A stretch of DNA of 64,000 bases from Tubiluchus corallicola (GCA_030141605.1 JAQGDQ010000329.1:203028-267027); one strand, 5' to 3'; shown: positions 24,911 through 58,280, counted from the stretch's first letter. Translations and numbers: made by a program. The notes: generated by a model from the sequence alone, not told the origin.

Positions 24911-25452
24911 CTTTGTCTCTTTGGGTTAAATTGCCTATACAAAAAATTGGTTAAAACGATGGTAATTATTTGTTTGTTAATGTAAGTAACCTTAGATTAT
25001 TTTTACTTCAGTTATAAGATGTGCGAAACGAAACAAAGGTTTTGTATATTAGGCACTGAGTATAACCCCGAGAGACAAACTAACGACAATTCTGTCAATT
25101 CATGATACGCTTATTGTGACAAAACTGCATCTTAAAATTTCATTTATATTTAAACTTCTTATGTTTGGTGATCTTTCCTGAAATGAATAAACAAAATGTC
25201 TAGTCTTTAGTCAGCTGATAGTTGATACTGAAATTGCTGTTTCTGATTCTGATAAAGCAAGTAATATTGCCAATTCTCTCAATTTACCAAGGCTCTCAAT
25301 CTTCACTGTAGCTTAATGTTACAGCAATGCTGCAATAGTAAGTAACAGTCATGCATGATAAATCAATATGTCTGTCATAATATCCACAGAGCCCTTCAAG
25401 TTTCTAAAGCTTCTCGTGTTTATACACTGTACCTTTTCAATGTGTTTCAGCT

Positions 25453-35501: not shown

Positions 35502-38500
35502 CTAATAAATGAATTTTTCGAAAAGCTTTGGCGTAGCTTCCTCAACATTTGAATCTGTGGCTATCCTTTTGTATTTTCTTTTGTTTGGTCTATTTGGCTG
35601 TCCTTCTATGCAATAACCCATAATCTAAAAACAATATTCTTATTGTCACAGGCTTTACTCGCCAATTAAATAATATCTAATATACGAGTATTAACGTTGA
35701 GAATTAAGGCCAAGTGAAAAAGTCAGAATGAAGGGAGGGCTGTTAAAAAGTCTTTAAGTAGCATCTATATAACACTAAATTTTTATTTAAATACAGCAAA
35801 AAGTTGACACTTAATTATAGGATTCTAATTTGTAAGTTGTCAGAATGCAAAAATGAATCTTACCTGTAATCTTTTGTGATAAACAATGTATGCTACTATT
35901 ATAATAGTAGTCCCTGCAAGAAAATATCCTATGAAGTGCTGCCCCTTCACATGGTTGATCACAGACTGTACCACTCTCTGTTTGCCTGTTGAAAGAAAAG
36001 ACCCAAACTTATTTTTGAAACTTTTGGCAGTTTTTTGTGTTTGCTCAACATTGCTTTCAAGAGAAAATTTAAATTTATCAGTTTTGTTGACAAAGGGCAT
36101 TAAATTTTTTAGCTTTAAGGCCAACAATTAATTCCAAAAAAAATTCTGTTGCAAATGTCACTTGTGTCACATCCATACTTATGGTACTTATTAGTGTCTT
36201 GTGTGTCAACTAAAGTGGTATAAGACTCTTAGAATTCATTGTTGATTAGCCATATGTGGATTTTCATATAATGTATAAAACTCAGAAAAGTGTGCGCTGA
36301 TTTAACTGATTGGAAACATGTCCTGTAGGAAGACTGGCAATTTTGGTTTTTTATCTTGTCCACAGAATTTAGTAAAGCATCTTAATATATTGCCTATTAA
36401 CATTCCGTTGTGATCAGTCAGCAAATTGACAGGAAGGAACTAAGAATGACTTCAGCTTATGCATTCTACCTTCTGTCAAAGTATTGACAATACTGGTCAT
36501 GAATAACATCCTGTAGTGTATTTTTTGTTTGTAATAAACAAATGCAGTGATCTTCAACTTTAAGTTTAAATTTTACCTGAAGTATTTTCACTGTTATCGC
36601 TATCTGGTTCATCTGTGGTACCTGCTTTTTTGTCCTTGGTTCGGTCGTTATTTCTGTTGTTGATTTGCTCTGCACTGCCTTTATTTACTTGCTGCATATT
36701 TTGTGGCTCTGGCATTTTGTTGTCGGTGTTCTCGGCACCCACTGTAGGAGTACTGTTAGACATGTCATCACCTTTGTGTATGTCACTCTGTATTGTGCTT
36801 GTATTTGAAGTTTCCTTTTCATCAGCTACGGGTTCAGCAGTGGTATTTGGTGTATGTGGTAAGGCTGAAGTGCTGCTCTTCTCAGGCTTACTGGATGTTG
36901 AAGTTGTTTTCTCATTGTTTTCATTTTTGGTTGTAACAGACACCAACTTTTCTGTCACTTCCTCTTTCTTATCAGGACTGCCATCTTTGCTACTTACTGT
37001 GCTTTCTGAAATGCCATTTCTGCTCTTATCAGATTCAGCAATTTGTTTTGCCAAACTTGCGAGTTCAACTTCAGCTTTGCGCCCATCTGCATAGCTAAGA
37101 ACTATCTTGGCCTCTACGGGAGATGGGTCTTCTGTAAAAAACAGAAAAACAAAACCTTCTCTACTGGGACGTATGAAAACCTTCACATTTATAATATTTA
37201 TACAATTCTTTTGATAATAAAAGTTCACATTGTATACATAAAATATTGAGATGTTTTTTACAATTGTTTTAATGGTGCTGCAGCCCCAAAGGAATAAAAT
37301 TTCGGAGGGATTTTTTATGTATTTACTCACGTTTTCCAGCTGCATTTTGGTTCCTAGAAATAGCAGACGTGGATTGAACTTCATTTTGGTTGCCATAGAA
37401 TCCAGCAGTCTGTAAATTCTTGTAATTTCTTTCCTGACCTTCATATTCGTTATATTTCTTAGCAGGGTGATGATTATTTAGATATCCCGGTTGGTCATTA
37501 ATTTGGCTACCTTGATAATCGTTTATGTAGAATTGTTGCTGAGGAGACTCAGTTATATAGCTATTTCTATTTCTGTGTTGAATGTTACGCTGAAAACCTA
37601 CAAAAAACATGCAGGTTTAGCTAGGTTAGAAATGACATGACCCTATCATGGCAAAATGGGCATTGAAATAAGGAATTCCTGTCTCTTTATGAATATTTAG
37701 CATGTTATAAAAACTTGTTGCCAATAATCACGAGAGCCAGCTGAAGTAAGTCTAGGATGGGTCCTGTACCAAGTGAGCCATGAGGTTTTCCAGGCTATAG
37801 TATGGAGATCCACGTCCTAATTATTTGAGACTAAATAAGCTTGCCAGTGTTTTACCCCGTACTTTTTGGAGAAATTATTAACTTCTTTCATGGTACTCGC
37901 AGGTCTCGAGTAGTACAGGACCAATAATAACAGATTTGTCAAAAATTTTGTGTCTGCCATGATGCGCCGACAGGACTCAAAAACCAAATCATTCCAAAGA
38001 AATGACTTTTATATGTAGCTTACAGCACGGCAAGCTTCAAAATTATCGCTAAAGAATATTCAGAAGTGGCTTTAAATTTATTGAAATTAAACTATTTACA
38101 TTATCTGATCTGCCAGTCGGTCACCCGATACTAACAATATTACATGATTTTACCAAAGGATCGATATAGCCTATTTTCACAAAGCGTTTCGCCAAACTGT
38201 GTGAGACAATACTAACTCACGCACACACAAACAGGCACTTACGCACGCACGGACACACACATTTGGTACAGCGTTAAGCTACGACTCCACGTGCGCGTAA
38301 TGCGTGATACCGAACGTCTGAATACGCATTACGCGCACGCGAGTCCTAGCTTAAACCAAGATAGAGAGAGCGAGCCTAAGAATGGAGTAATGAAAAAAAT
38401 TCTAGATACCGTTCGTATATTGTGGCTGCTGCTGATGAAAGCGCCCTTGTGCGTTAACTACTGTCAATCCCACTCCTAACAAAAACAACAAAAACACTTG

Positions 38501-38503
38501 CAT
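35502..38503 (-). CDS. TGN38/TGN46 (TGOLN2)-KCT2-like membrane protein, gene A (complete, 5 exons)
   Basis: Exons in order: 38410-38503, 37331-37597, 36577-37131, 35864-35985 and 35502-35624. Phases agree and give 386 aa. Exon 1 encodes a clear signal peptide (MQVFLLFLLGVGLTVVNA, cleavage about residue 18). Residues 32-120 are N/Q/Y-rich, and 121-305 are acidic and S/T/K-rich and probably disordered. One membrane segment is at about 323-341 (FIGYFLAGTTIIIVAYIVY). The 45-residue tail, starting HKRLQIMGYCIEG, matches the TGN38 pattern HHNKRKI-AF-LEG in order and spacing. It holds the YxxPhi signal Y364-K-R-I, in the position of the mammalian YQRL motif. Family role: type I proteins cycling between trans-Golgi network and plasma membrane. 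The luminal part is too simple to align, so the assignment rests on the membrane/tail module. Confidence 0.85.
38274..38354. repeat. Foldback palindrome with about 31-bp arms
   Basis: The left arm TTAAGCTACGACTC, then GTGCGCGTAATGCGT, is mirrored by ACGCATTACGCGCAC, then GAGTCCTAGCTTAA, with one indel and about two mismatches and an 18-bp loop. It is in intron 1 of gene A, about 55 bp after the donor. It is markedly more GC-rich than its surroundings. Confidence 0.85.
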
Positions 38504-39351
38504 TTTAAACACTAAACCTGCCCCCAAATACTTGCTCACAAACTGTATTGCCAACTCACACATTATGTAAGAAAACTTAATAATTCAAAACCGGTCACGA
38601 TTCTGAGTGGGTTAATGCATTCAGTAACGCTTGAAAAGCTAGGTCATTAGCACTTGGCTGCTATACGTGTTCAGGAAGCTATACAGTGCGCACCATTAAA
38701 ATATACGAAATATACGCACCCTAACTAGATAGGCATATTTTAGCACTCACAGTTCGATCTTAGATTTGGGGTAGTAACATAATGCGCCTGATAGATATAC
38801 GGGATGTCAAAATATTTTGACAGATATTAGAAGTTTTTGTATCCCTATACGATAGCTAGTTCTTGGTCATGTGCCTTCGTCGTGAAGAAAACTTCTTGAA
38901 AGGCAATATTTTGCACTTGAGATTGGCAGTCGAGGTTTCATTTCGAATACCAATCAGAAGAGTTTAAAACGTTTCATAAATTTATAGCATAACACATGAA
39001 GTTTAAAGATTTCAAACAGAAAGCTGCAATTGTCATATTTTATTATTTTTAAATCCAAAAACCGGACTTTTGTGAATCCAACATTTTTAGTCCCGTAGAT
39101 GTTTTAGGCCTGTGTTTCAATTTGATTTTACTATATTATTATTGCAACAATTTTAGATAATATACAACTTTTTTATAATGTTTAAAACAACTTATATTTG
39201 TATTGAATTATTTTATCTTGAAATTTGCATGTACTTAATTCTGTACTTTTTAATTTATTTTACGCACCATTTTTTCAGACTAAATGTCGGCGCGAAATAT
39301 AATAATTATTACTATTATTTCAAAAATGCTTGATAATTGCAGTAAAACTGT
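38504..39351. other. Upstream region of gene A, no gene seen
   Basis: It should hold the gene A promoter. It is AT-rich and no exon was recognised. Confidence 0.4.
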
Positions 39352-40198
39352 AATTCACTAACGCTGAAAATTTGTTTTCATGAATTTTAGCTAGAAAGGG
39401 CTAGGGTATTAATAGTTACAGTATTAGAAAGTTGTTACTAGCAGCTAATTCAAGAAAATGCTGCGATATTTACTAGTGACCAGCATATAAGTAGTGTCGA
39501 AAATTATAAAATCTGAGAAATACGATAAGATGGAGCACGCTTTGATGTACGGCATGCCGGCAGAGTTGCAAAAAATTGTACAGAATTTCTCAGAAAAGAA
39601 ATGAGCGTGTGCTTTAGCTATGGTACAAAATATTTGCAATCACTTTTGGTGGGGGTTCGTCGATATAAAATGGTGATGCCGATGATTTAGTGAAACGCTT
39701 CCAATCTGTTCTTCAACACTATTTTAATAGGTCTGCCTGATATGATGAAGCTTCGACTTAGCAACATTGTAATCAATTCACTAACGCTGAAAATTTGTTT
39801 TCATGAATTTTAGCTAGAAAGGGCTAGGGTATTAATAGTTACAGTATTAGAAAGTTGTTACTAGCAGCTAATTCAAGAAAATGCTGCGATATTTACTAGT
39901 GACCAGCATATAAGTAGTGTCGAAAATTATAAAATCTGAGAAATACGATAAGATGGAGCACGCTTTGATGTACGGCATGCCGGCAGAGTTGCAAAAAATT
40001 GTACAGAATTTCTCAGAAAAGAAATGAGCGTGTGCTTTAGCTATGGTACAAAATATTTGCAATCACTTTTGGTGGGGGTTCGTCGATATAAAATGGTGAT
40101 GCCGATGATTTAGTGAAACGCTTCCAATCTGTTCTTCAACACTATTTTAATAGGTCTGCCTGATATGATGAAGCTTCGACTTAGCAACATTGTAATCA
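39352..40198. repeat. 423-bp tandem duplication, two nearly identical units
   Basis: Unit 1 is 39352-39774 and unit 2 is 39775-40197. They appear identical by eye, including a short minus-strand frame that recurs at 39445-39639 and 39868-40062. On the plus strand a fragment reading KYDKMEHALMYGMPAELQK then KIVQNFSEKK is followed by a stop and could be a decayed transposon gene. The near-identity implies a recent duplication or an assembly artefact. Confidence 0.92.
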
Positions 40199-41807
40199 TA
40201 AGGAGATTACATCGAAGAAAAAAGAGAAAATTTTGTTTCATGCGAACAGCGAGTGTTACGAAAAGCTTTCAAGGGTACTGAGTACTTTCAAAACTCACTA
40301 AAGTAATTAGAAAATTGCGTTTTTTATTCATATGTCTGCACTTGAAATGTTTCATTATGTTTTACTAAAGCAAGCACCAAAGAGACTTTATCCCCCTCTT
40401 AGAAAACAAGTTAGCGAGAATTTAGCCAACATTGACTGATGAAAATGTCAACATGAGTCATGTTCTCCTTCTAGGATATCGTTAACCATCGTACAGAAAA
40501 ACAACAAAAAGGTTCCACGAAAGAAATGTCTATGAAAGAAAAGATTACAGCTGGCGCAGAATGTTACTTTGTGAAATTTTCAGACGCTATTATATTTAGT
40601 GTTTGTGAAATTTGGGCGATTAAAGTGTTTTTATTTTCCACAGTTTTAAAACAAGGAAGTTAAAAAAATAAGCTGAAGTTTAATAAAAAAAACTGACTAC
40701 TTCCTAGCTTAACATGTTCAATTTTTGTGATACAGCTGAAAACTTCTGATACAGTAGCGTTTTGTTTGTTTTTCGCATACGCGCGTTTTGTGAAAAGCGT
40801 TAGAGATACCATTGACGTCAATCGAAAACTAAAACAGCTTATTTCTGCATGTAGAAATTGCTTGTCAATTTTAAATATGATATAGTTATCCGCTTATAAT
40901 CAATAATGCGCGAACATTCTACAAGTGTTCATTTATTTATCTAACTCAAAGCTAACAACAGCTTTTACAGAAGCAAAATTATAGACCGAGTACAATAGCT
41001 GGCGTCAGAAAATAATGGCTTTGCGTCAGCAGTTTTGTAAGCTATAATCTTCCGAAACCGAACCTCTGAGCAACTCGTCATCGCTCCTCTTGGTGACGGC
41101 GACTCCAAAAGGGACGTTTTTGTTACAGGCTGTTCTGTCACAATTTTGAAAAAGTGTAGTTAGGTCCGTGAAAGCGTCCTTTAAGTGACACCATGGCCCT
41201 CCCGCCAATTCTAAATATGCCTACTATACACACACCGTTGAATGGGCTATCTAACCAATACCAGCACTCCCCTCAGCCCATTGCCGATTACTAGAAAAAG
41301 AGGCATAGGTTTTGCGAAAATGAGTGAGAAACGGCTATTTTTGGAAGTTTTTCGCCCCCGTTCCTATCAATGAGACGACATTAGATCTTGAATAGATTTT
41401 GCAAACTAAGAAGAGTTTGCTCATCTATTGATGAAGTGGATCTAGTGGAATCACAGGAATCACTACAGCTAGACCTTTCGTTACCAACCTGATTGAACCT
41501 TTCCCATATTAAAAGTAACAAGGGGAGTCTTAGCTCACACTAACTTGTGTTAGTATTAATTAGCTGTTAGTTTATATGATGACTTTAATCAGTAGCTGGG
41601 GGGGGGGAGGTATTCGTATTGTAATAGCTTTGCTAGAGTGTGCTTTATCGCTTAGGCAGAGACTGATTTTCGAAGTTTTGACAAGGAACAAAGAAACAGC
41701 AACTAAAATGTGACTACAAACAAATATCACAGTGTATTTTTTTATTAACACATCAACAACTCATTAAGCTTGCAAAATTTAAGCAAGTGTAACTTTGTAA
41801 AACTAAC
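40199..41807. other. Intergenic between gene A and gene B, no gene seen
   Basis: No conserved exon was found. A poly-G run (about 9 G) is at about 41600. Confidence 0.45.
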
Positions 41808-42083
41808 GGCGCATTCAAACTGGCGAGTTTTCTGTCTGACACCAACCTTGGAAGTGTGAACTATTTTGACTGTTGGCAAGCTATTGCAAACTCTCCGACA
41901 GTTGAGTTACTATCTAGTGTGAATACTTCAGCGAGTTACTCTGGACACTTCTCGCAGTAAATACAGAGTGTCAGCTGACGCTTACTGTCGGATAGCAGCT
42001 TGTAACAAGTTTTGCTCTATAGTCTGAACACGCTTGCAAAGTTAATGGCAAGAAAACTCACTAGTCTGAACACTGAACGCGCC
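41808..42083. mobile_element. MITE with GGCGC termini
   Basis: It begins GGCGCATTCAAACTGGCGAG and ends with the inverse GGCGCGTTCAGTGTTCAGAC (minus strand), both followed by GAGTTTTCT. It is 276 bp and non-coding. The superfamily is not determined. Confidence 0.6.
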
Positions 42084-42394
42084 ATAACACAATGGCAGCT
42101 AAAACATGTTCGCTGTAAATAAATGTATAAAAATGTTCTAATGAATGTATTCTATTGCATATACTATTTTGCGTCTTGTTTAATCAAATCTGTTTGCTTG
42201 GGGTAATGTAAATCACAAAAAGGTGTGTCTACTCAGTTTTTAATTCAGTTCATAGCACATTTGTATTTCACTACTCTTGGTAAACAAAGGGCCAAACAGA
42301 GCAAACTTCTTTACATCTTATAATTCAAAAACTTATTTACTTGAAATCTTAATAAAATGCCACTTTCAGTTTTTTTAAATGATGGTGACTGCAT

Positions 42395-42850
42395 GTACGA
42401 GGGGAAAAAGGGGGAATTTTAAAATATCTCCTAAAAAACTTTCCATACAAAGTTATATTAGTTTGCATTGTGCTTACCTGTTCTAAAGACTTATATAACT
42501 AGAAAAAACTTAGTTATTTAAAATGTTTGTGCCAGCTGGTAGATGTCACTGATTCACTTTCCCAGTGTGCACCACTGAGTCACCAAAAAACATATTATTA
42601 ACATTACTAACAAGATAAAGCAATTTATATTTATACTTTTGCTTAGTTAGTAAAGTGTGCCCTACAAATGCTATGATTATTTTCTTAAACTTTACTCAAT
42701 TTTATCTAAACTAGTTTCAAACGACCTACCATCAAAATGGCTGCTCCTAACAGTCATTGCGAGAGATTAAATTTTCACGTTTTATACAGTACTGCTGTTA
42801 ACACAAGCTCTTCGAGCAATAAGGCAGTATATAAGTGACACAAAATTTCA
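42395..42850. repeat. Unclassified dispersed repeat, copy 2
   Basis: It shares the ordered phrases of copy 1 (27545-27965), including AACTTTCCATACAAAGTTAT and GTTTCAAACGACCTA ... AAAATGGCTGC. Confidence 0.75.
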
Positions 42851-44218
42851 AGATGAATTTCTCTAGCTTTATGTAAGTAAATGGTTTTCTTGTTCTGTTA
42901 ACAAATACAATTGTTACGTGTGGAAACTTTACTGATGCCATCAAAACCAGAATGTCACAATGTAAATGCAATAATAACTTAGCTGCAGCGAGCCATCACA
43001 TCATTTTATACACCATTATATTTTTTACAGTGACGCCAAGTACACAAATACTTTAATAAAAAAATAAATTACAGCAAATATGAATGAATTATTGCAGTGT
43101 TTTACACAAGCGCACTATATGCTGAGGTGACCATACAGAGCACAAAATATACATAATGACCTCACAGTTTTATAACTAATTAAAAGGCACAATGGCTATG
43201 AACTACATACTCTGCATTTGGGCCATCTGATTCAAAGCCAAGTTACGTAGAAAAGTAATGCAAGTTACGCTCTAGCATAAAATCATTTATATATTTACTG
43301 AAAAACTTGGATAGTTGTTCAAAGTCAACACTTAACATTATCATGCATGGGTCTTTGGAAAAAGTTTGACAGAGTGACCATTTTCAAGCTTGTACTTAAC
43401 TATATTAATCACAAAAACGATAATACAGTGCACAACAGAAAAGCAAACTCGATTTACAAGTATAATGGCAATGTCATACATTACTATCATATTTAGCAAA
43501 AGATAAAACAGTTTATAGTTTTATAAATTCACACTTTTAAGCGCATTTGGCTATTTGGAAATCACAAAATTACTTTCTGCACAATTTATGTTATGAGTTC
43601 GCAAGGGTAAATAATAAAATAATGCTACACCTCGTTATAATGCCAACCTCATTTAATGCCCAAATTTTTAGCAAAACAAAAATATTTGTATTTGCATAAA
43701 CACGTATGCATTAATGCAAAACTCGTCTAATTACTGCCAACTTTTTTGTAGTGCCTACTCAGGCTGTATAAAGAGGTTTGAGGATCTAAGAATTTTGTTG
43801 ACAACCCACTGATAGTTACTTGCACCCAAAGCAAAAGTTATTACGTTACCAATGAAATCTGGGTGTAGCGAGTTCAGTACACACAAAAGCTACTGCTATT
43901 GTACTACTGTTCAAGCAAAAGCAAAAAGGTGGAGAAAAGAACCCTGCCCAAAAGGCTGTCACACCTCACCTTCAACACTAATCAAATAACATCATAATGC
44001 TCATGTCACACTTTACAAGCTTAAAAATTCACAAAATTGGCTTTTTACGGCATGATCAAAGCTTGAAATAGTCTACTAATACAGTTAAAAACACGTTATT
44101 TAAAACAATAATCTTAATAAAAAACTCAGTTAAGATATAATGCACAAGCTTGTCAAGTGGCCAACAGTATTTACATTTTGGAAATGGAATGTGTGTGAAC
44201 AGGAAATAAAAATCTTTT
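42851..44218. other. 3' flank of gene B, no gene seen
   Basis: AT-rich, with a Tigger-like MITE at 43626-43782 and otherwise nothing recognised. The 3' UTR of gene B should lie in the right part. Confidence 0.45.
43626..43782. mobile_element. Short Tigger-like MITE
   Basis: ACACCTCGTTATAATGCCAA at the left and AAGAGGTTTGAG at the right. Internal similarity (CATTTAATGCCCAAATTTTT, AGCAAAACAAAA) to the 45254 and 51356 copies. Confidence 0.6.
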
Positions 44219-44359
44219 TCAGTATATATAACCTTCATGAGGAGTTTTTGTTTTCAAACTCTGCATCACATCTTCTACCTGTTCTTCTACTTTACCATAA
44301 TGTCTTCGAGAAGGTCGTTTTTCGCCCTTCCTCCGTCCTTCAATAATGACTGCAATTAT
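44219..44359 (-). CDS. Gene B terminal exon: cytoplasmic tail
   Basis: 46 residues and a stop. IIAVIIEGRRKGEKRPSRR is followed by H-Y-G-K-V, then EEQVEDVMQSLKTKTPHEGY and IY. The start matches the TGN38 tail (KIIAFVLEGKRS...RRPK..Y). The YGKV tetrapeptide fits a YxxPhi AP-complex sorting signal at the expected distance. The acceptor TTTCAG|ATAATT is strong and in phase 0. Confidence 0.85.
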   Translation of the reverse strand: MIAVIIEGRRKGEKRPSRRHYGKVEEQVEDVMQSLKTKTPHEGYIY

Positions 44360-47300
44360 CTGAAATAAAAGCTTAATTTCATTGACTTGGGCAATTTTAA
44401 TTACAAGTAGAAAATTCTAATGTCAGGTAGAGATACAATATTAGTCTTGAAGCCAAATGTTTTTCAGATTTCAGATTGTCTTGTTGGCACCAGTTTGTAT
44501 CAGTATTAGTCTGATTCCTATTTCTTGCATATTGCTACAGATTTTGTTCTTGGTCTTAACCTTTACTCTTATTTACACAAAATGCACTTAATGTTAATTT
44601 TAAATGTTAATTATTCATATCACCAGATAGTGCATGAAAAAGTAACATACATGAAAAAGTAACATAATTACGCAAAAATGTTTTGAATGCAGCATATTTA
44701 ATAGGTCTGAAACTGCTTTCTAGGAAAAAAGTAATGTCCGTTCCTACTCTCAGAACAGTCTTGATTTTGACAATCTTGGTTATAAATGTTAGAGTCTTAT
44801 TATTGGTCTTGAACATGGGTTTTGGTCTCGACTACTCTTATCTCGACGGTCTTTGTTGCCTTAGTGAACACCACAGTACAGTATTTTTTATCTTAAAATG
44901 ATCTCTTAAATTTCATCTGTGCATTCTTTTGGTATGTCTAAGTTGAATTTAGCACTGAACTGCTGGTGGCACCTGGTTCGGGCCTGCAGGTACAGAGGTG
45001 GAGCAGCCTAATAATGATTTGCACATAACCACAATTAAACAAAGCTGAAGATTTAACTACAAAGAGATTTAAATATTACAAGGCCTAAACTAACTATGAC
45101 AAGATTTTAAACAAATTAAAGAAAAACAGAACAAAGAAATAAAGGCCTATATTTTCTACATTTTTACTTTACATCTCTTTGTTTTCAATAGCCTACAGTT
45201 GGCATTGCTAGTACTAATTCTGCCACAACATTAGCTAAATGTGTTTTTATGAACAGTAAAACCTCATTATAACGTCCCCTTTTATAGTGCCTACCTCACT
45301 TAATGCCCAATTTTTTGGCAAAACAAAATGTTTATATTTGCATAGATGTGTATGTATTAATACACATCGTTATAATGCCAACTTTTTTGCCGTAGCAAAC
45401 TAGATAGTAAAAAGAAATTTGACTGAATCTGTCTTATTATTACAAACAACAAATAAAGGAATATCAAGTTACAATAACAACCTTGTTTTTATTATGGAAG
45501 AGAACGTAGCCAAGTATACAGAATGTTACTGCAAAGAGAAAGTATGCCATAAAATGTGTGGTTGGAGGAGAGTACGTCATTTGTGTTACATCGTTTTGAA
45601 CTTGTTCAACTGCAAACAAAAACATTATGAATCATTATGAAATGTCATTGTTTTGAATTGGAAAACTTGTATCATTAGGTTTGTTGTCACTGTTTAAGTG
45701 TTACGTGAACTATTATCGTAAGCATTATCGTAAACATCACAATAAATTTTAAGTTTTGAAATGCTTCCTAAAAACTTTCTGAATTACAGTAAGAGTGTAA
45801 TGAGAGATCGGGAAACAATAATCCTTGTGTATCTGCACTGCAGAAATGAAATAATATGGCATTTGGATAATTGACCTTTAGTTAAAGCAGAACTGACTTC
45901 GATGATAATTATTTTGGACACCCAGAATTTCTGACATACTATAACTAATAAAAACATATACAATCTGCACAGTGTCCAATACATAGCATAACCACTTTCA
46001 AAAAATAAAAGCTAGTCGACTAGTTAAACAAGATGTCAAACTACCATCTTTTCTCTAAACATTGTCCTGGTATAAAGAAAGCTTATGGGTAAAAATATTT
46101 AGATGATTAAACAGAAACAACTGAAAAAATCATTTCTACCAACAAGAGTCACATTTGACTAATTTCAGGCTGTACCATGTTTTTTATTTTGTTCTTTCTT
46201 TCTTAACTTATTAACTTAATAGTTATATATTCTTAAGAAACAGAATATTTAAAATTTCAAAACCCGTTAAATGAATAGCAACAACTTACTTGGCACTTCA
46301 TTCGGCTGTTTTTCTACTCCTGTTCCAGGTTCTTCATTTGCTCCTACAAAAACAAAAAAAACTAATGTTGCATACAAAATGTACCGCTTTTTTAAATTTA
46401 TAAAATACATAACATAGTTTCTATTTTTAATCTTATTTTTCATTCATTTTGCTTTTTGAGCAATAGCAGCATCAATGATAACGATAAAACTAACCAGCAT
46501 TTGGCAAATCTTCAGTATCCCCACCAACGATGTCTTGCTCATCATCTCTTTCTGTTTCTTCTGGGCCATCATCTGTAAACACGAAACATGAACTATGCCA
46601 GGAAATACTGTTATCACCCACAATATGTATATATTCGTTGCTACAAGCAGTACATAATTCAGAAGCAAGCAATTTTCATCTTTGGCAAACCAACAACTGA
46701 ATCTGAGGATTAATGTAAATGTGCCAAATGCAGACCTTTTGTAAAATACCTAGGCATTTTATATAATACCAGTGCATTTCAGGAGAAGTACGAAGCACAT
46801 TTTTTGTTGTCACACTTTTCCTAGACATTTTGTGTAATAGGTAGGATCTACATGGAATGCGTAAACTGGTTTTTGCAAAGTGCAGAGTAAACACAATTCG
46901 TGTTGAATTTAACTTTTCCTAGATATTTTATACAATATGTGAAATGACTTGGTCAACATATTAAATTAAGGGGATCAGTGGATCGAGCAAGCCCTTAGTT
47001 AATAACCCTAACCCTACATCTCTAACCCTAGCCAAAATTAATTGTGACTTTTTCTTAACCAAAACTGTAACTTCTGTCCGTGATTTTTCCCTGTGACTTT
47101 AGCACTGCCATATTTAACAGTCGCCTATATGAGACCTAGTGCTGTAAGCTTGCTTTTCTACAGGTCAACCATTCAACCAAACCACACTTTTACAATAACG
47201 AACAATCAATAGCCAGCTGCTTTTTGTACCACATGATTAAGTATTTACATAATTGATTAATTGCTGCCATTTTTGTCACTCAGAAAACAATCCTTCGATG

Positions 47301-50300
47301 CATTAGCTTGCCTTTCTTCTAAGCCAGTGTAAAATCATTCTTTGGTCTTAAGCACAAAATCAGTAGGTATCCATCCTGTACAGAACACAAAGCGTAACAC
47401 TTCTAACAGCAGACAGCAGCTGCTAATAAAACCATTATGTAACCTGAGCATTCACTTGAAGTGTTTTTATCACACGAATGCAAGCACCTTCAATCCTTGC
47501 TTAAATCCATTAAATATCTAAACACGGCTTATTTCACATATTGCCTAAAACAAAATTTGCGTAATATAAAATGTCTAGGAAAATCATCCCAAAACAATTG
47601 GCTATTTGTTTTGTTTTTCTATGGCATTTGGATAATTGACCATGTTTTAAAACAGAACTAACTTCGATGTAATTATTTTGGATACCCAGAACGTTTAAAA
47701 AGCTAAAACTATTCAAAACATGTACAGTTTATACAATTTGAAATTCAGAACAAAAAGTTAATATATTTCACAACCACTTTCAAAAAATAAAAGCTTGTCG
47801 ATCAGTTAAACGTAATGTGAAACTATTTTTTCACTAAACATTGTAGAGGTACGTTTAGACACTGCAAACACATAGTACCAATCGAAAGTATAAATTCTAT
47901 GAGCAAGAGTCACATTTGACTAATTTCAGGCTTTACTGCGTTTTTTTATTTTGTTCATTTTGTCTTAGCTTATTAACTTGTTAATGATACACTCTTAACA
48001 AATAGAATATTTAAGATCCGTGTATTGAAGAACAACAACTTACTTGATGCTTTATTGGGTTGTTTTTCTACTGTTGTTCTAGGTTCTTCATTTGCTGCTA
48101 CAAAAACAAAAAACATTTGTTTCTATTTTTAATCTTATATTCATTTATTTTGCTTTTTGAGCAATAGAAGCAAACAGCAGCATCAATGACAACAATAAAA
48201 CTAACCAGCATTTGGCAAATCCTTGGTATCCTCACTAACGATGTCTTGCCTATCATCTCTTTCTATTTCTTCTAGGCCATCATCTGTAAATACAAAATAT
48301 GAAACTATGCCAGGAAATACTGTATGACCCACATCTTAGGCAACCAAACAGGCTGAAAATTACAGTCTAACTCACATAAGCTGCCGTTTAGGGCATCTCG
48401 CCTATGACAAAAAATGGAAACTAGCGATGATCTTTATGGCTTAATCTATATTAAGAGGGTGACCGGAATCTGGATGATTGCTACAGAAGATATACATGTA
48501 TGTATTTATCGCTAAAGACAGTACATATACCAGAAGCAGACAATTCTTCTGTTTGACAAATCAACGAGTCAACCTGAGGATTAATCTATAAGTTACAGAC
48601 AATGCGCAAAATTTAGATCTTTTGTAAAATACCTAGGCACTTTATATAATCATATTATTATTGTAATATATAATTATACTAAACATAATTGATTTCGGGA
48701 CAAGTATGAAACACATTTTTTGCTGTGATCGTGTCACACTTTCCCTAGATATTTTGTACAACAGGTATGTAAAGTGGTTTTGGCAAAGTGCAGAATGAAT
48801 ATAATTCATGTTGAATTTAACGTTTCCTAGATAATATATACATACCCAGACATTTTACACAATGCGAGAAATGACTTGGCAAATGTTTAAATTAAGTAAG
48901 TGGGTCAAGAACAGACCTTTGCTGCATTAGTTTGTCTTTTTTCTAAGCTAGTGTAAAATCGGTCTCATTTTAAGCACAGAATCAGTAGGTATTTCTGCAT
49001 CCATCTTGCACTGAACATAAAAAGGTAACACTTCAAACAGCAAACAACAACTCTTAATGAAACCATCACGTAACCTGAGCATTTATTTGAAATGTTTTTA
49101 TCACACAAATGCAAGCACTTTCAATCGTTACTTAAAGCCATTAAATATCTAAACATAACTTATTTCACACATTGCCTAAAACAAAATTGGCATCATATAA
49201 AATGTCTAGGAAAATTATCCCAAAACAATAGGCCATTTGTTTTGTTTTTACATTAATTAAGTTGTATTCAACATTCTATACAATGACTAGGAAAAGCTGT
49301 AAAAAACTAAACACACCATACTTTGGTTACACAAACTTTTGCAACATATGTAATGCCTAGGAAAAATATAAAAAAAATATTTTAGACACTTTACCTGGTT
49401 TATTTTAGCACTTTGTAAAATGACTAATCATTTTGTAGAATGTCTCGCTTCACATTTTACCTGTCTAACATATATTGCTAGACAAACCTGTTAACACTAC
49501 TAAAAAGGAATCCAGCTAAACATTTTCACTCTTTTCAAGAGTTTTAAGCAAAAAGTCAAGATAACAACAACATGGTAAGGGATGTAAGAAACTGAAGCCG
49601 TTATTAATACTATTAACTTGTACCAGAAGTGGAAAAAGTCGGTTCTGTATAGTTCAAACCATCAACTGCAACTTGATCTGCACAATAATAAAAATGCTAA
49701 TGTTATGTAACATAGATGACAGTTGAACAAATAAACTAAAATGTACTAGAATGCTTAAAGAGGAAGAAAAGAGAATTTTAAAGTATATCTCAAAGAACTT
49801 TCCATGTAAAGTTATGTTACTCTGCATTACGCTAACCTGTTTGAAAGACACATGTAAATGGAAAAGAAAATTCTTTGTGTAGTCTAAATATAATGTTTAT
49901 GCCACCTGATAAAAGGACACTGCATCGCCATTCCAGTGTGTACCATTGATTCACCGAAAAACACATTATTGATTTTATTAACAACACAGAGTAATTTAAA
50001 CTTTTGCTTAGCTAGGGAAATGTGCACTACGCATGCTCTGATTATTTTTCAAATTTTACGCAATGCTGTCTCAACATGTTTCAAACACCTTATGGTTAAA
50101 ACAGCTGCACCTCTGCGCCTTATGGCTAAAATAGAAACACAGACCTGCTAGATAATCAGCTGCATTAATTTCCATAATTTACTGTAGCTAATTCTAACTT
50201 AATCGTACATTAAATATTAACTTTATATTGTTCACGTCATATCAATTAGTTTTAATAACTACAACGATGCCACCAAACCAACAGTTTCTATATCATGAAA

Positions 50301-53300
50301 AGTGTGACTGATTCGATAACTTCTGTTTTTTGCCACTCTTTTCCCTAGGGTATGAGTTATTTACGATATTTGTGTAACCTTACATTTACTATCGTAGGAA
50401 AAAATAAAAAGAATCTGAATCTGCAATATGCTGACAGTTTATATTTTAATGTTGCTCGATTATATACGATTACATTTCTACAACGAGACGTACGTCAGAG
50501 ACAACAATGATAAATAAATGTGCACAATATTTTTTCCTCAGTTACTTACAACATACCATCTTTTGGTTCTTCTTCGAAATGTTCAAATTCTGGTGCACTT
50601 TCATCTGCAAAACAAAATGATCCGTTAAATGAGTTAGAGAAGCTGGTGCAACTATCAAGAATAACGAAAATTGTAAAATATTAAATGTGGCAGCATAATA
50701 AACACTGAGGCAACATTCCTACTTGACTTTTTGTGACATTTTCTGACATCACAATACACGCATCTGCAAATAAATAAGATAATTCTTTTGATGAGTAAAA
50801 CCAAATGGAATTGCATTTTTTTGTTTTTATTGAACTCTTTTCTGGTGAGTTGAGCTGAAAAAGCTTAACAATTTATTGGAAAGAAAGAACCATTCAAGCA
50901 CACCCTCTGCAACACTGCTATAAGACGTGGCACAAAAACTAATGAAAAAATCTGACAATTAGGCGACTAACACCAAATTTTATTTTGACGTGAAAGAATA
51001 AGAAAGAAAAATACAAAAAAATGTTGCATAATATTGTCAATAGTAATTTTTGGGGGCATTTTCATATTATTAACACATAAAGATATCACCCTAAAAAGTA
51101 TACACTCACATACAACACAGAACCACAACCACAGCTAGGGGTGTTCGAGGATCGGGATGGATTGACGTTTGGGTCAAGATTAGCACTTCATGACGGTTTG
51201 TGGTGCGCATTTCCGAGGTTCGCGATCGGGATGAAATGTTTGAGATAGGAGTTCATGACCCAGAATCATAAATATAATTATCAGCAAATGGAAACGTGAA
51301 AATTAGAGCAAAATTCATATAATTTTATCTTCAACTTGTTACTTATAAGTGAATGACTGTAAAAAACCTCTTTATACCCCCTATTTCAAACTGCAAAAAA
51401 GTTGGCATTAAGCGAGTTTGGCATTATAACAAGGGGCATTAATGCATTCATGTCTATGCAAATATAGGCATTTTGTTTTGCCAAAAATTTGGGCGTTAAG
51501 TGAGGTTGGCAACTTGGCATTATAAGGGGGAGGGGGCGTTATAAACGGAGGTTTGACTGTACAGCAAAATCAGATTAAAACACTCACCAGGCGATTCAGT
51601 CAAAGGCTTGTCGTTTACATCCTCAGAGGGTTTTTCATCAGTTTTACCTAAATACATTGCACAATATTAGCTGTTACATTATTATTATTACATTATAAAA
51701 CCAACAAAAAACTATATTCTTTCACTTATCAGTAATAGATGGTACATGCAAAGCTTAGACATTCACAAAGACTATTAAAAATTAGATCATTTACAACCAC
51801 ACAAAAATAACAACACATAACAGGCACTTAAATTTTAATAAATCTGGAAGGTAAGAAGTTATGTGCTCATCAATTCAACTAACACAGCCAAAGTTAAGTT
51901 CCGAAAATTAATTTCAGGACATACCCTAATGTGGATAAGACACCTCTGCCATTCAGTATCTCAACTTAGAGGATTATCTTTAGTAATGAGCTACACACCA
52001 GTCCTGACACACACGTCACCATAACAAGTATCACAATTTAAAGCTGGATGCTGAATTACAGTGCGCCGACAAGAATAAAAAATGTAGTAAACTAGAAGAA
52101 AAATTCAACTTGGTATAAATGTCAAGAATTTGTAAACAAAATTTTGGCTGAGAACATTTGCATCTTAAAAATGTGCTCTAAACTTGTATTACTTTACATA
52201 TGCATGTGGTTAATGATTTTAAAGCATGGGTTAGTGTACCTGGAAAAATGCACCACAATAGAAAAGTGTATTAAACCAATATTTACCAACTGGGTATTTG
52301 TTAACTTCTTCACTTAGTTCTGCACTTCCACCTGCAAATATTTAGAGGAAAACCGGACTCAATCTTAAGCTATAACTCAAACCAATCTACTTCTTAAAAG
52401 ATTGAAAAGGAGCATACTATTTTTTTCAAAAATGACTTACGTGAAATAATTATTACCACAGAAACGTAATTTTGCATTTGTGGGGGTAGTTCTTCCCCGT
52501 TACATACATTTAGCCACATGCTAGTTAAACAGACAGTAGCGCCTGCATTTCAAAAACATGTTGCACAAAAAACAAACGCTGCACCTGTCAGTTTAGAAGT
52601 GTTCGGATGTGACATTGTACACACATTCAAAAGCTTATTTGTGAGTACAACGTTAAACTTGAAATTGGAATTTAAAATTTAAAAGTTGCCACGTTTTTGT
52701 GTATTACACCGAATGTTGTACATGCACTACTGACAAAAGTCTTAGAACACATCTATACATATATTACGTTTACGATTTCTGTTTAATATTTTTCTGACTA
52801 ACCTCGAAGATTTGCAGCACCAGCATTTTCTGGCAAAACAGATTGTTGCGGCTGATCTAAAAAAATATGGATAAATAAACTACGCATACATAGCCACTAA
52901 AAATCTTAAAACTTCAAATGCAAAGCTCAAAAAGCTGTAAGCAATAAAAACGAAAAATCGGATAAAATAGACCAAAATAAATTTGTTCCTACCAGCAGTA
53001 AACTTTGTCCGTGCTGCACTTTAAAGTAAATTTTGTTAAATTACTTTTGCATAAAAAGCCAAATGGCCTCATTCATATTAGTAACAGCTAAAGGGGATGT
53101 GATTGCAGGTGAAAGAATAACATCACCCCAATGTGTTTCAGGTTTAACTGGAGGCAGTTAGCAGTTACTATAGCCTCTCTGGATCTCATGCTTAACTGGA
53201 GGCACTCAGCAAAGGCTTCATTAGATTTTATGCTTCAAATGATGAATGTAGCCAAAAGCCATAAACTATATAGAAGGTCCAGTCAACTCTTAAAGCCCAG

Positions 53301-56300
53301 TCAAGCATTGTAACTATTGTACACCACCTGCCATCATTTAGGACAGTTGTTTGACATGCGACTATTTAGCATATATTATGCCATCTATAATGCTACCATT
53401 ATAGCTCTTTAAGCTATACTTCTAGAAAGGCACTACTTTTTGTGCATGAAATTAACACTGTGCTTTCTCAAGATCAACAAAACTGCAGGAGTTCCTCTAA
53501 AGCAATTAACTAAATGAATGGCAAAAGTAAAAATCAGAATGTATGAATCAGTACTTTCAGTTTATTGCAAAAGACTCATTCATTTGCACATCTCAAAACC
53601 TAGACTACAGGGTGTTTCAAAAGTCTCTATACACGTTGAAGTCTATTTTTCTTTTCAAATTTTCCTCCGAATTCAACAAGCTTTAGCATAATTCACAAAC
53701 GGTCTTTTGAAATTACTTCTCTGTTTAAGATTCAACTGGGTCACCATAATTATGATGATTGTTATGTAAAAGACTTTCTTAGCACAAGATTTCCATCAGG
53801 CAAAATGGTCATTAATGACCTCAATTATAAATACTGAGATTTGACAGAGTTGGCTCCTGCCAATCTTTTATGAGTCAACATCAGCTGAAACGTTCATATA
53901 TGCAATAGGATCAAGGCCCTTCCATGAACTTGAAACAATGATTAGGGATTGCCACACAAATATTAACTTGAAATGCTGATGTTGGAAATGTATTTGTTAA
54001 CTGAAGTGCTTGGAAAAAAGTGGTGAACAATCTATCAGTCACATCATTCGTTTCGGATTTTCATTTAATTTGACTAAAAAAAAATTCAGAAGTATTAATT
54101 TACACATAAAGTTTTGCTTTAAAAATAATACAAAATGTCAAGTGGATAGAGATGTCTAACACACTCATTTGTAACCTATAGCAACACTGCAGGTGATGTA
54201 TAGATAAAGTATTGCTTGCTCACTACTGTCTAGTATGTAATGCAACAGCATCTTGGAAAGATATTGTACATTTAGAAGTAAATTCTCACTGAGCAGTGTC
54301 TAGTATGTAATGCAACAGCATCTTGGAAAGATATTGTACATTTAGAAGTAAATTCTCATTGAGCAGGGTGTAAAAAATGCTATCCCATTGACATGTGGTT
54401 TCAAAAGCATTACCCAAGGTAAGTTGTAAGTGATCATCTTAAGTATTATAAGTGAAATGCCTTATGACTCACCAGATGAAGTTTTTTTGTCCATGTTATT
54501 CTCATCAAAATGCTTTTGCATCTCCTTAAGCTCACCTACAAGGACATATTTATTACGATGAATATACTAATGAGCAATAAACTTAACAAAAAAATGACAC
54601 AAAGACTTTTATCGATAAAACCTGTGACAATTTGGCTCATTATTCAAACTAACAAATCACAAACTTGTGCAATATCTAAGTGTAACTATACGTAAACATA
54701 TATAGTATGCATAGTAAACATATAATGCATTAGACAATTTGTTGCAGACAAGGTATTGCAAATTATCCTAATAACTCTATAATAAATCAGGCAGCATTTT
54801 GCAATCAAAAAAGGTCTATAAAGGTTCACGAAATTTCTAACGCAATGTCTAACACATCCAGTGAGTTAGTATTTCCTAGTTTTATGCACATTTCATAATG
54901 TATGTTGTAATGTAATCATAATGTAATTTAAGCACGTTGACAATTCCATTTTTTTCAATAATTAGCAGACACGCTAATGTAAACTGTTTGAAAATGTATA
55001 TCAACAACCAAATAAAAATTTAGAGACCAAGCTGAGTTTCTTTCTTCTGGAACCAAATTACGAGTGGAAATTCTTGAATGTCAACATTTATTCCATTCAA
55101 TGCCAACATCACCTCATTATTTTGTCTGTAAAGCAATTTTAATAAGCTAACTATCAAGTTACTTGTTGGCACATCTCAGCAGGATAGTGCTTTTAAAAAT
55201 AAAATAAAACCGAGAGAGAAAGAACTTTTGCACAAAAACTGTTTTTAAGCCTAAGTAAGTAAAGGACATATTTTTTCATAATATTTTTCCTCACTACATG
55301 GAAACTCCTTTCCCATTTTGTATCAAACATACGAGAATACAAAGCAACTATACAGTTTACTTCACAATTTTTCACATAAACATTTTAGTTTTCTGAAATT
55401 GCTGAAAACGAAAAGATAAATCCACTTTCCTCGCACGGCATGGTCAAGAGTGATAGAATTGACACTGTAGACAATGCCGTAACATAAGCAAGCTATGCCG
55501 TATGAAGTCATCACGAAAAGTTAACATAGCATAACACCTCACACAAGTGTTGTATAGCAGAAGTTAGGCTGTGCAAAGCAAGAAAGTTGCAGGTAACAGG
55601 CAACATAATTTCTTCATTGAATTGGCTTTTAAACAAGTAACAATAATGAAGTAACAAGTAACAGGATTTTGTGTCATCTTTTAAATGGCATTTTTCTTGT
55701 GAATCTTAATGCATAGGCACGCTGGACAATTGCCCTGGGTTCCCACGAGCATAGGCACTGTGAAATTTTCTTTCACTTGAGTGTATGGAAAATGACATCC
55801 TGAAGTCCATTGACATCAAGCGAAATATAAAACAATTTTGTGCAAAGAAATTTTGCGGAAGTTTGTGTTGAACACTTGATTAATAATAAATAATTCACAG
55901 TAATTTCATACTGTGTCATCTTCATCTGTATGGTTTACTAACTGAGTATCATATATCAGTTGAATTTTTTGTGTTTTTCAAGGCTCACGTTATATTGCTC
56001 AAACATTTGTGTTAATGAATCTTTGCTGAATAACATATTTTAGATGTTAGACATTGCTTTTGGTGGCAGTAGCAATACAACAATAATTTTATCGACCATT
56101 TACATTTTTATTCCTGTGAATGGTTGTTTAGATAGGGGCCCCAGTGTACTGCTTTGCTCAGGGTCCTATAATGCTGTTAAGATGGCCCTGCATAAGAAAT
56201 TTCATGAAATTTTATATAGTCTGTTATTGCTGTTTCTGGTAGTTTGCTAATTATTTTTGCAAGCATTGTTCTTTCGTAACTGGCGGTACATTACACTATG

Positions 56301-57574
56301 TAACAAAAAACTAGTTAACTTAAATAACAATAACAATGTCATTGAAGTATCAATGTTACTGGGTTCAAAACTCACCATCATTTGAAGGTGAACCAGATTC
56401 AAATGACTGTCTGCCTTTGTCTTCGGGTGCTACAAGTGTAAATTAAATAATTACAAAAAACTGAAACTACTTTACAGAAAACACTGTACATTGCACAACC
56501 AACTTCACAGTCAATTAATTCACTAAACATAACAAAAATAATTAACTTACAACACAATACCATTAAAGTGCTAAAATTTACCAGCATCTGGAGCCGAGTC
56601 ATGAACAAAGATTTGTCTGCCTCTCTCTACAGGTAATGAATCTGCAAGAGGAAAATAAATAATGACCTAAACTGCTTTACATAGCATGTATTCTGCATTG
56701 TACAACGAACTTCAACATGATTGGTTAAGACACTGAACATAAAGAACCTAAATAACTTGTAATAGTCTGTTATTGCTGTTTCTGGTAGTTCGGTGACTAT
56801 TTTTGTACGAACTGTTCTTCTGTAACTGGCGGTACATTACACTACGTAATAAAAAAACAGATTAACTTAAATAACAATAACAATGTCATTAAAGTGCCAC
56901 AGTTACTGCATTAAAAACTCACCAACAATTGAAGATGAGCCAGACTGAAATAATTGCTTATTCTCTCCTACAGGTGGTAAGCCTGCAAGTGTAAAATAAA
57001 CAGTAATTACATAAACTTCTTTACAGAGAATGAATTTCAACACAATTAACTAAGCCATTAATACTCTTGAACTACATGAAAACTTTTTATTGTCTAAAGC
57101 AATTTTGAAATCTTGGATTATTTGCAAAATATGAAAGTGCTTAAATTAGCTCCTAAGACATTTAGTTGCTACAACAAACCAGAACATGAAAGCAGCTAAA
57201 TGACCGAGAGTGCTTGTAAAGCATTCAATAGGTCAAGCCATGAGTTTCAATGACGTTTTATTAAGATGACCTCATGCAAAAGACTTTGTCAACATCAGAA
57301 TCAAACACCAGACTTCACACACAAATAATAACTACAATAAGTTACAAACAGAAAGAAGTGAACTATAAATTGGAAACTACAGTATGTACAAAAAATATAG
57401 ATCATCTGTAAACGTCTGTTTCATTATTTTTTTTAGTATTTTTAATGTGTTCTTTTTCAAGGTTTACCTATACAGTCCCAAGCTTCAACACGAGAATAAT
57501 ACATTCTTACTATAAGCAGAACGTACCATTTTGTTCCTGCTTGTAGTGTGGCACTTCTTCAAAGTCAGAAAAAC
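44219..57574 (-). CDS. TGN38/TGN46 (TGOLN2)-KCT2-like membrane protein, gene B (16 exons, 5' end missing)
   Basis: Minus-strand exons in transcript order: 57527-57574, 56923-56982, 56582-56641, 56376-56429, 54473-54535, 52803-52856, 52287-52331, 51588-51647, 50557-50604, 49624-49677, 48206-48283, 48044-48097, 46495-46572, 46290-46343, 45482-45609 and 44219-44359. All have AG and GT borders. The first 14 are symmetric phase 1-1 modules of 15-26 acidic, hydrophilic residues, so each can be gained or lost without frameshift. The last two encode the membrane segment and tail (HFMAYFLFAVTFCILGYVLF, then HNKNK-IIAVIIEGRR), closely following mammalian TGN38. 1079 nt of coding sequence were found. 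The start codon and signal peptide were not found and may lie beyond the satellite at 58.3-63.6 kb or beyond the window. The gene lies immediately upstream of gene A, a tandem paralog. Confidence 0.85.
45254..45425. mobile_element. Short Tigger-like MITE
   Basis: 172 bp, beginning CAGTAAAACCTCATTATAAC and ending TTTGACTG, in the last intron of gene B. It resembles the copies at 43626 and 51356. Confidence 0.65.
45482..45609 (-). CDS. Gene B membrane-spanning exon
   Basis: 42 codons: a juxtamembrane stretch EQVQNDVTQMTYSPPTT, then the hydrophobic segment HFMAYFLFAVTFCILGYVLF and HNKNK at the cytosolic border. The exon enters in phase 1 and leaves in phase 0, exactly as the equivalent gene A exon (35864-35985) does. 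Confidence 0.88.
46290..46572 (-). CDS. Gene B exon pair 1 (duplicated luminal module)
   Basis: Exon 46495-46572 reads DDGPEETERDDEQDIVGGD then TEDLPNA. Exon 46290-46343 reads ANEEPGTGVEKQPNEVP. Both are phase 1-1. They are paralogous to the pair at 48044-48283, at about 80% identity by eye, and the flanking introns are also alike. Confidence 0.85.
47002..47030. repeat. Short interstitial telomere-like sequence
   Basis: AACCCTAACCCTA followed by CTAACCCTA gives three imperfect (CCCTAA) units inside a gene B intron. It is too short to be a telomere. Confidence 0.5.
48044..48283 (-). CDS. Gene B exon pair 2 (duplicated luminal module)
   Basis: Exon 48206-48283 reads DDGLEEIERDDRQDIVSED then TKDLPNA. 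Exon 48044-48097 reads AANEEPRTTVEKQPNKAS. Exon lengths equal those of pair 1 (78 and 54 nt). Intron phrases such as CACTTTCAAAAAATAAAAGC recur at an offset of about 1.75 kb, so a genomic block containing two exons was duplicated. Confidence 0.85.
49750..50135. repeat. Unclassified dispersed repeat, copy 3
   Basis: It matches copies 1 and 2 in phrase order (AACTTTCCATGTAAAGTTAT ... GATTCACCGAAAAACACATT ... TTTGCTTAGCTAG ... GTTTCAAACACCTTA). It is in a gene B intron, between exons 49624-49677 and 50557-50604. Confidence 0.75.
51356..51559. mobile_element. Short Tigger-like MITE
   Basis: ACTGTAAAAAACCTCTTTAT at the left, GGAGGTTTGACTG at the right, roughly inverted. It ends about 30 bp from gene B exon 51588-51647. 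Confidence 0.65.
53607..53830. mobile_element. Possible DNA-transposon end (CAGGGTGTTTCAAAAGTC)
   Basis: ACAGGGTGTTTCAAAAGTCT resembles termini of several mariner/IS630-type elements. No matching inverse end was found nearby, so it is probably a fragment, in a gene B intron. Confidence 0.3.
54228..54367. repeat. 70-bp tandem duplication
   Basis: GTCTAGTATGTAATGCAACA through AAATTCTCAYTGAGCAG occurs twice head-to-tail with one substitution. Confidence 0.92.
56376..56982 (-). CDS. Gene B three-exon cluster of paralogous modules
   Basis: Exons 56923-56982 (GLPPVGENKQLFQSGSSSIV), 56582-56641 (DSLPVERGRQIFVHDSAPDA) and 56376-56429 (APEDKGRQSFESGSPSND) share a P-V/E-x-G-R/K-Q-x-F-x-x-x-S pattern. 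The introns at 56218-56345 and 56763-56895 share phrases such as TCTGTTATTGCTGTTTCTGG and ACTGGCGGTACATTACACTA. Whole exon-plus-intron blocks of about 550 bp were therefore copied. Confidence 0.8.
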
Positions 57575-58280
57575 CTAAAAAGCACTTTTTTTAATTATTT
57601 TCATCTAACTAATTATACTCACACACATTGACGTTAATAAGAAATTAAGATGAATGGGAACGTGTAATTAATGAAAACAATTGTCATTCCACACTCATAG
57701 ACGTAACTTACAACTTATGAACAGTAAACAGAGCATCAGGCACATACATTGCATACTAAGTGTCAGAAACAGATTAGAATTTATTAACACTCTAGTGCAA
57801 ATGAAAAAAAGCACAATAAGTTCAATAATATAAATCTGACAGAATAGTATATAAAAGTAAAAGATTTATTTAAAACAAGACATTTTGGTTTAATCGCTAA
57901 ACGTCTGAATTTTATATTGCATTACAATAATTATTGTAATGTTAGAGACATAAAATTTACGTAAAAATTATTGCTGACAAATGCTCTAAAAATAAATTAG
58001 TGAAGCCCAGATAGCAACCGATGGCATAAATTTTTAAAAATTTTACAATTTCAATTTGTTATGCTTAGGTTACAAAAAAACTAATGTGAATTTAATTTTT
58101 GTTACAGATATGTCCGCTAAAAATGATTTAACAAATAAACCAAGGCATTCTGATATGTCACGAGAATCATGATGTGATTTAAAATGCCTAATTCAAAACT
58201 ATAGTTTGCACGGCATCTATAAAATATCATTGACAAAGAAAATATGTATGTATGAATAATATGATATATGAATATCCATG
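57575..58280. other. Gene B upstream or intron DNA, no exon seen
   Basis: AT-rich DNA between the last confident gene B exon and the satellite. No signal-peptide exon was recognised on the minus strand. Confidence 0.45.

Follow-up and report, generated by a model that had tools for sequence, protein, structure and literature searches.

Do two neighbouring minus-strand genes in this stretch of Tubiluchus corallicola DNA, which close with the same kind of membrane exon and tail exon, belong to the TGN38/TGOLN2-KCT2 family, and how did one of them come to have 14 tiny luminal exons where the other has two large ones? The window, by which we mean the whole 64,000-nucleotide stretch that was analysed, closes contig C1723 on its right-hand side, in an assembly of 343.5 Mb. 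A sequence-only reading had proposed a tandem pair of TGN38-like genes sharing these two exons in phase and residues and differing greatly in their luminal parts, and on both points our analysis agrees with it: all the exons of that reading could be located, with canonical AG/GT ends.

The trans-Golgi network is routinely marked with TGN38/TGN46. The rat protein, TGN38, and its human counterpart, TGN46, cycle between this compartment and the plasma membrane, with the tail sequence YQRL as the retrieval signal; in TGN46 the tail comprises residues 403-437 and YQRL lies at 430-433. The luminal domain is disordered, and its conservation is poor, its bulk being only ~25% identical between rat and human (PMC10928510). 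Sorting of the secretory cargo PAUF requires TGN46, for which direct evidence of a cargo-receptor role came only recently (PMC10928510, 2024).

Gene A occupies 35502-38503 on the minus strand, has five exons and encodes a protein of 386 residues:

35502-35624, minus strand: gene A tail exon, IMGYCIEGQPNRPNKRKYKRIATDSNVEEATPKLFEKFIY followed by a stop, with the YxxPhi motif YKRI
35864-35985, minus strand: gene A membrane exon, entered in phase 1 and left in phase 0, ending in HFIGYFLAGTTIIIVAYIVYHKRLQ
36577-37131, minus strand: gene A luminal exon 2, 555 nt, phase 1-1, rich in S, T, E and K, with N-glycosylation sequons
37331-37597, minus strand: gene A luminal exon 1, 267 nt, phase 1-1, rich in N, Q and Y
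38410-38503, minus strand: gene A signal-peptide exon, MQVFLLFLLGVGLTVVNAQGRFHQQQPQYTN

The predicted product has type I topology, with a signal peptide (MQVFLLFLLGVGLTVVNA), a luminal part of ~300 residues that lacks cysteine and carries four N-glycosylation sequons, one span, and a tail of pI 9.3. Up to the membrane exon every intron is in phase 1; the last one, which leads to the tail exon, is in phase 0. Another signal-like reading near gene A, at ~37960, was rejected because its donor, as judged by eye, is in the wrong phase. Just upstream of gene A, at 39352-40198, a 423-bp stretch occurs twice in tandem with 100% identity; it was duplicated very recently, or else the assembly is in error here. 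Convergent with gene A are the exons of a LanC-like (LANCL) gene (25408-33410, plus strand), and a long open frame at 10823-11695 on the plus strand, which we take to be SNIP1-like, begins with charged, basic sequence and contains an FHA domain (Pfam match).

Gene B (44219-57574, minus strand) has 14 luminal exons between 57574 and 46290, followed by its membrane and tail exons, and a probable signal-peptide exon lies ahead of them:

44219-44359, minus strand: gene B tail exon, IIAVIIEGRRKGEKRPSRRHYGKVEEQVEDVMQSLKTKTPHEGYIY followed by a stop, with the YxxPhi motif YGKV
45482-45609, minus strand: gene B membrane exon, entered in phase 1 and left in phase 0, ending in HFMAYFLFAVTFCILGYVLFHNKNK
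46290-46343, minus strand: gene B luminal exon 14, a tandem copy of exon 12
46495-46572, minus strand: gene B luminal exon 13, a tandem copy of exon 11
48044-48097, minus strand: gene B luminal exon 12
48206-48283, minus strand: gene B luminal exon 11
49624-49677, minus strand: gene B luminal exon 10, containing an NYT sequon
50557-50604, minus strand: gene B luminal exon 9
51588-51647, minus strand: gene B luminal exon 8
52287-52331, minus strand: gene B luminal exon 7
52803-52856, minus strand: gene B luminal exon 6
54473-54535, minus strand: gene B luminal exon 5
56376-56429, minus strand: gene B luminal exon 4, kin to exons 2 and 3
56582-56641, minus strand: gene B luminal exon 3, kin to exons 2 and 4
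56923-56982, minus strand: gene B luminal exon 2
57527-57574, minus strand: gene B luminal exon 1
57712-57754, minus strand: probable gene B signal-peptide exon, MQCMCLMLCLLFIS(C)

All 14 luminal exons, of 45-78 nt each, are multiples of three with phase 1 at both ends, and together they encode a strongly acidic, cysteine-free domain (pI 4.1; 71 D+E versus 24 K+R). The candidate signal exon, absent from the sequence-only reading, is separated from exon 1 by a 137-nt intron, and its donor, GTAAGT, is in the required phase 1. At the same threshold such candidates occur at ~0.03 per kb per strand across the window, and the chance expectation of one between exon 1 of gene B and the satellite beyond it is ~0.025; the stretch 57712-57754 is thus likely, but not proved, to be the signal-peptide exon of gene B. 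With it the predicted product of gene B also has type I topology, with a luminal domain, one span and a tail of pI 9.5. The satellite itself (58367-63585; 38-bp unit, ~137 copies, 86% match) lies near the contig end and is perhaps the reason why the contig stops there.

One could envision A and B as a single transcription unit, with the membrane and tail exons of A providing an alternative 3' end for B, as the two lie on the same strand in the same order and their splice phases are compatible throughout. However, the gene B tail exon has its own stop codon, gene A starts with a signal-peptide exon of its own whose phase fits, and gene B has a separate signal-peptide candidate, so we regard a single unit as very improbable and treat A and B as two genes.

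Another concern is that some of the 14 mini-exons are spurious or decaying, such that the real luminal part is shorter or gene B is a pseudogene. We counted exon-like units under a strict splice rule, with the plus strand, six control stretches and 30 Markov shuffles for comparison. The minus strand of the gene B luminal region holds 21 phase-1 units versus 2 on the plus strand, 1-5 in the control stretches, and a mean of 3.8 (maximum 9) in the shuffles; units in phases 0 and 2 on the same strand number 10 and 7. Eleven of the 14 gene B exons are among the 21, and some of the other ten units represent these exons in shortened or extended form. The three weaker calls (exons 1, 8 and 10) fail the strict rule, which favours the concern, as does a dN/dS of 0.65 over the 42 codons of the duplicated exons described below, a value that does not prove constraint because 5 synonymous and 13 nonsynonymous changes are too few. 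In the opposite direction, all 14 exons are open, in phase 1-1 and bounded by AG and GT, the excess of exon-like units over shuffles is about fivefold and confined to this strand, and the duplicated exons are free of gaps in an aligned block that has many. Spurious or decaying exons therefore appear quite improbable, and we retain gene B as a gene with 14 luminal mini-exons.

How these exons multiplied is in part still visible in the DNA:

45850-49270, no strand: tandem duplication, with copies at ~45.85-47.6 and 47.6-49.25 kb, introns included
56216-56956, no strand: second tandem duplication, with 547-bp spacing, which includes exons 2 and 4 together with flanking intron

In the first, a block of ~1.7 kb is present in two tandem copies of ~80% identity, and the exon pairs 11/12 and 13/14 exist because this block was duplicated; its two exons align without a gap over 132 nt, whereas the whole block contains 387 gap columns. 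The second links exons 2 and 4, to which exon 3 is also related. The remaining luminal exons show little or no detectable kinship. Since both ends of every luminal exon of gene B are in phase 1, any one of them can be duplicated, lost or skipped and the frame into the membrane and tail exons is kept; alternative splicing of the mini-exons is only a possibility. The proposal that the luminal part is freely rebuilt is thus borne out for gene B by visible tandem exon duplication, within a comparison of two luminal domains. A short repeat, at 42629-42683 in the downstream flank of gene B and at 49994-50048 in one of its introns, is possibly part of a mobile element.

A search of the organism's own genome with the gene B membrane/tail module returned, besides B, two exons on contig C2143: a tail exon (51% identity) and, more weakly, a membrane exon. 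This third gene, C, on the minus strand and likewise absent from the sequence-only reading, has a membrane exon ending in DSATFITYFVIAASACVICYILYANRNK, preceded by phase 1 and joined in phase 0 to IMARCIEGKRKGKRPPKRDYSKLEQNVEEAIPSMCRTTPNESYIY and a stop; the supposed pair of A and B is real, but it was an incomplete description of the set. In the 1.3 kb remaining to the contig end no luminal exon of gene C could be named, and we infer that it has further exons upstream of the membrane exon, in the stretch beyond the contig end. B and C both lie near contig ends with their 5' sides facing the end. At 8840-9290 of L008, just upstream of the gene C membrane exon, there are several tandem copies of an element of ~80-90 bp. 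The same search gave weak matches at two other loci: that at L006 lies inside an apparent sugar-transporter (SLC2-type) gene and was taken as chance, and L007 yielded a weak match only. The reverse search with the gene C tail found only gene B, and a search with the gene A module returned gene A alone, which makes A the most divergent of the three.

The module, less than 90 residues long with a span of ~19-20, is entered in phase 1 and joined to its tail in phase 0 in A, B and C. Residues common to the three tails include the first I, IEG, RP, R-Y, VE and E, and all three close with (Y/F)IY. Each carries a YxxPhi motif, YKRI in A, YGKV in B and YSKL in C, where TGN38 has YQRL; Val at the Phi position, as in gene B, is a weaker choice. 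The motif lies 23 (A), 26 (B) and 26 (C) residues from the membrane-spanning window, a position we count as corresponding to the ~25-28 residues expected in the family.

Because the module is short and gene A finds no Pfam match, the likeness could be merely generic, of the kind expected between any single-span proteins with a basic, tyrosine-containing tail, and A at least could be unrelated to TGN38/KCT2. When membrane and flanks were shuffled separately with composition kept, however, the observed module pair scores lay 13 (A-B), 16 (A-C) and 23 (B-C) standard deviations above the shuffles and were reached in 0 of 5000; the tails by themselves gave 6.5, 10.4 and 23.2 standard deviations, respectively. 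Among 2212 ORFs of the window, the best matches other than self to a profile built from B and C, with A left out, were the two separate gene A exons (membrane exon, E 8.9e-5; tail exon, E 8.4e-4). Together with the agreement in intron phase and placement, and with EG, RP, R-Y, VE and the (Y/F)IY end retained in the tail alone, these results make generic similarity very improbable.

As to which family this is, PF17818 (KCT2) matched the gene C module with 28.2 bits and B in full length with 26.9 bits, both narrowly above the curated Pfam cut-off of 26.2 bits; the gene B module alone scored 24.3 bits. Over the luminal stretch gene B matches weakly, perhaps owing to its acidic composition. Gene A, whole or as a module, had no Pfam match, and its likely membership follows from paralogy, A being placed only through B and C. 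The membership put forward earlier for the pair therefore stands by profile search for B, and for C, but not directly for A. The only other Pfam hit of gene C was one viral profile, far below its cut-off (E 0.14). PF17818 is the sole credible Pfam family for these proteins; placement of the module in another family, which would have told against the sequence-only reading, did not occur in the Pfam search. Judged from the sequence, the TGN38/KCT2 assignment is good for genes B and C and likely for gene A. A whole-genome scan with PF17818 gave no match, but gave none in control genomes either, so that it is uninformative on absence, and a search of solved structures produced no credible relative.

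TCF/LEF is an animal gene, present in several copies in vertebrates. A TCF/LEF-type HMG box was found here at one locus only, with up to 91% identity (one exon) to a TCF/LEF box, so that the DNA most likely comes from a non-vertebrate animal; a search for mitochondrial COX1, which would have narrowed the phylum, gave no match. TCF/LEF and VDAC are neighbours of TGOLN2 and KCT2 in humans; linkage to either was not seen, both being on other contigs, with C1723 and C2143 too short to exclude it.

The three proteins resemble TGN38/TGN46 (TGOLN2) in a basic tail and a YxxPhi motif at a similar distance from the membrane, as well as in the type I topology predicted for A and B and a probably disordered luminal domain, and KCT2 (C5orf15) in the PF17818 match of full-length B and the C module over the membrane/tail part, A being below detection. 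The TGN38 tail peptide KVTRRPKASDYQRL, which serves as an AP2 ligand (PMC3655264), is similar to KGKRPPKRDYSKL of gene C. In contrast to TGN38, where Ser stands two residues before the motif's Tyr (SDYQRL), A, B and C all have Arg there; ~19-23 residues follow the motif in the present proteins, compared with 4 in TGN46, and the chain closes with (Y/F)IY; the luminal domain of gene B is spread over 14 small exons; and there are at least three genes. A described invertebrate counterpart is C. elegans TGN-38, which resides in the trans-Golgi and is brought back from the plasma membrane via a retromer-associated recycling route (PMC10166553). Invertebrate members are thus not unheard of, and the earlier statement that these proteins are hard to find outside vertebrates was only partly right. 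A partial literature search yielded no paper on the family's invertebrate distribution or on the relation of KCT2 to TGN38.

We thus favour, with a probability of roughly 0.8, the explanation that A, B and C are TGN38/TGOLN2-KCT2 paralogues encoding type I proteins that cycle by means of their tails and whose luminal part has been reshaped. Whereas exon anatomy, family match, motif position and tandem duplication can be read from the DNA itself, expression, adaptor binding, cycling and any role with cargo are inferred for these products. Each would consist of a signal peptide, a cysteine-free and probably disordered luminal stalk, one span and a short basic tail, whose YxxPhi motif most likely binds clathrin-adaptor mu subunits; through such binding the protein would leave the trans-Golgi network for the surface and be retrieved, and it may carry or sort luminal cargo en route. 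Phase 1-1 luminal exons could have been duplicated, lost or skipped without affecting the frame, leading in gene B to 14 tiny acidic exons, and the membrane and tail exons would have stayed fixed as these multiplied, partly by tandem DNA duplication. One could go further and envision an animal family built as a fixed membrane/tail shuttle with interchangeable phase 1-1 luminal mini-exons, whose duplication or alternative splicing would provide every paralogue or isoform with a separate cargo range, a speculation we consider unlikely.

The locus adds to a known family and has an unusual arrangement of exons; from the family and the conserved YxxPhi motif we propose a trans-Golgi protein that recycles and whose luminal part can change. 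The three non-vertebrate paralogues show which parts are fixed, namely the membrane part, EG, RP, YxxPhi and the C-terminal (Y/F)IY, and which are free, and the tandem duplication of frame-neutral exons offers a visible route to luminal-domain divergence.
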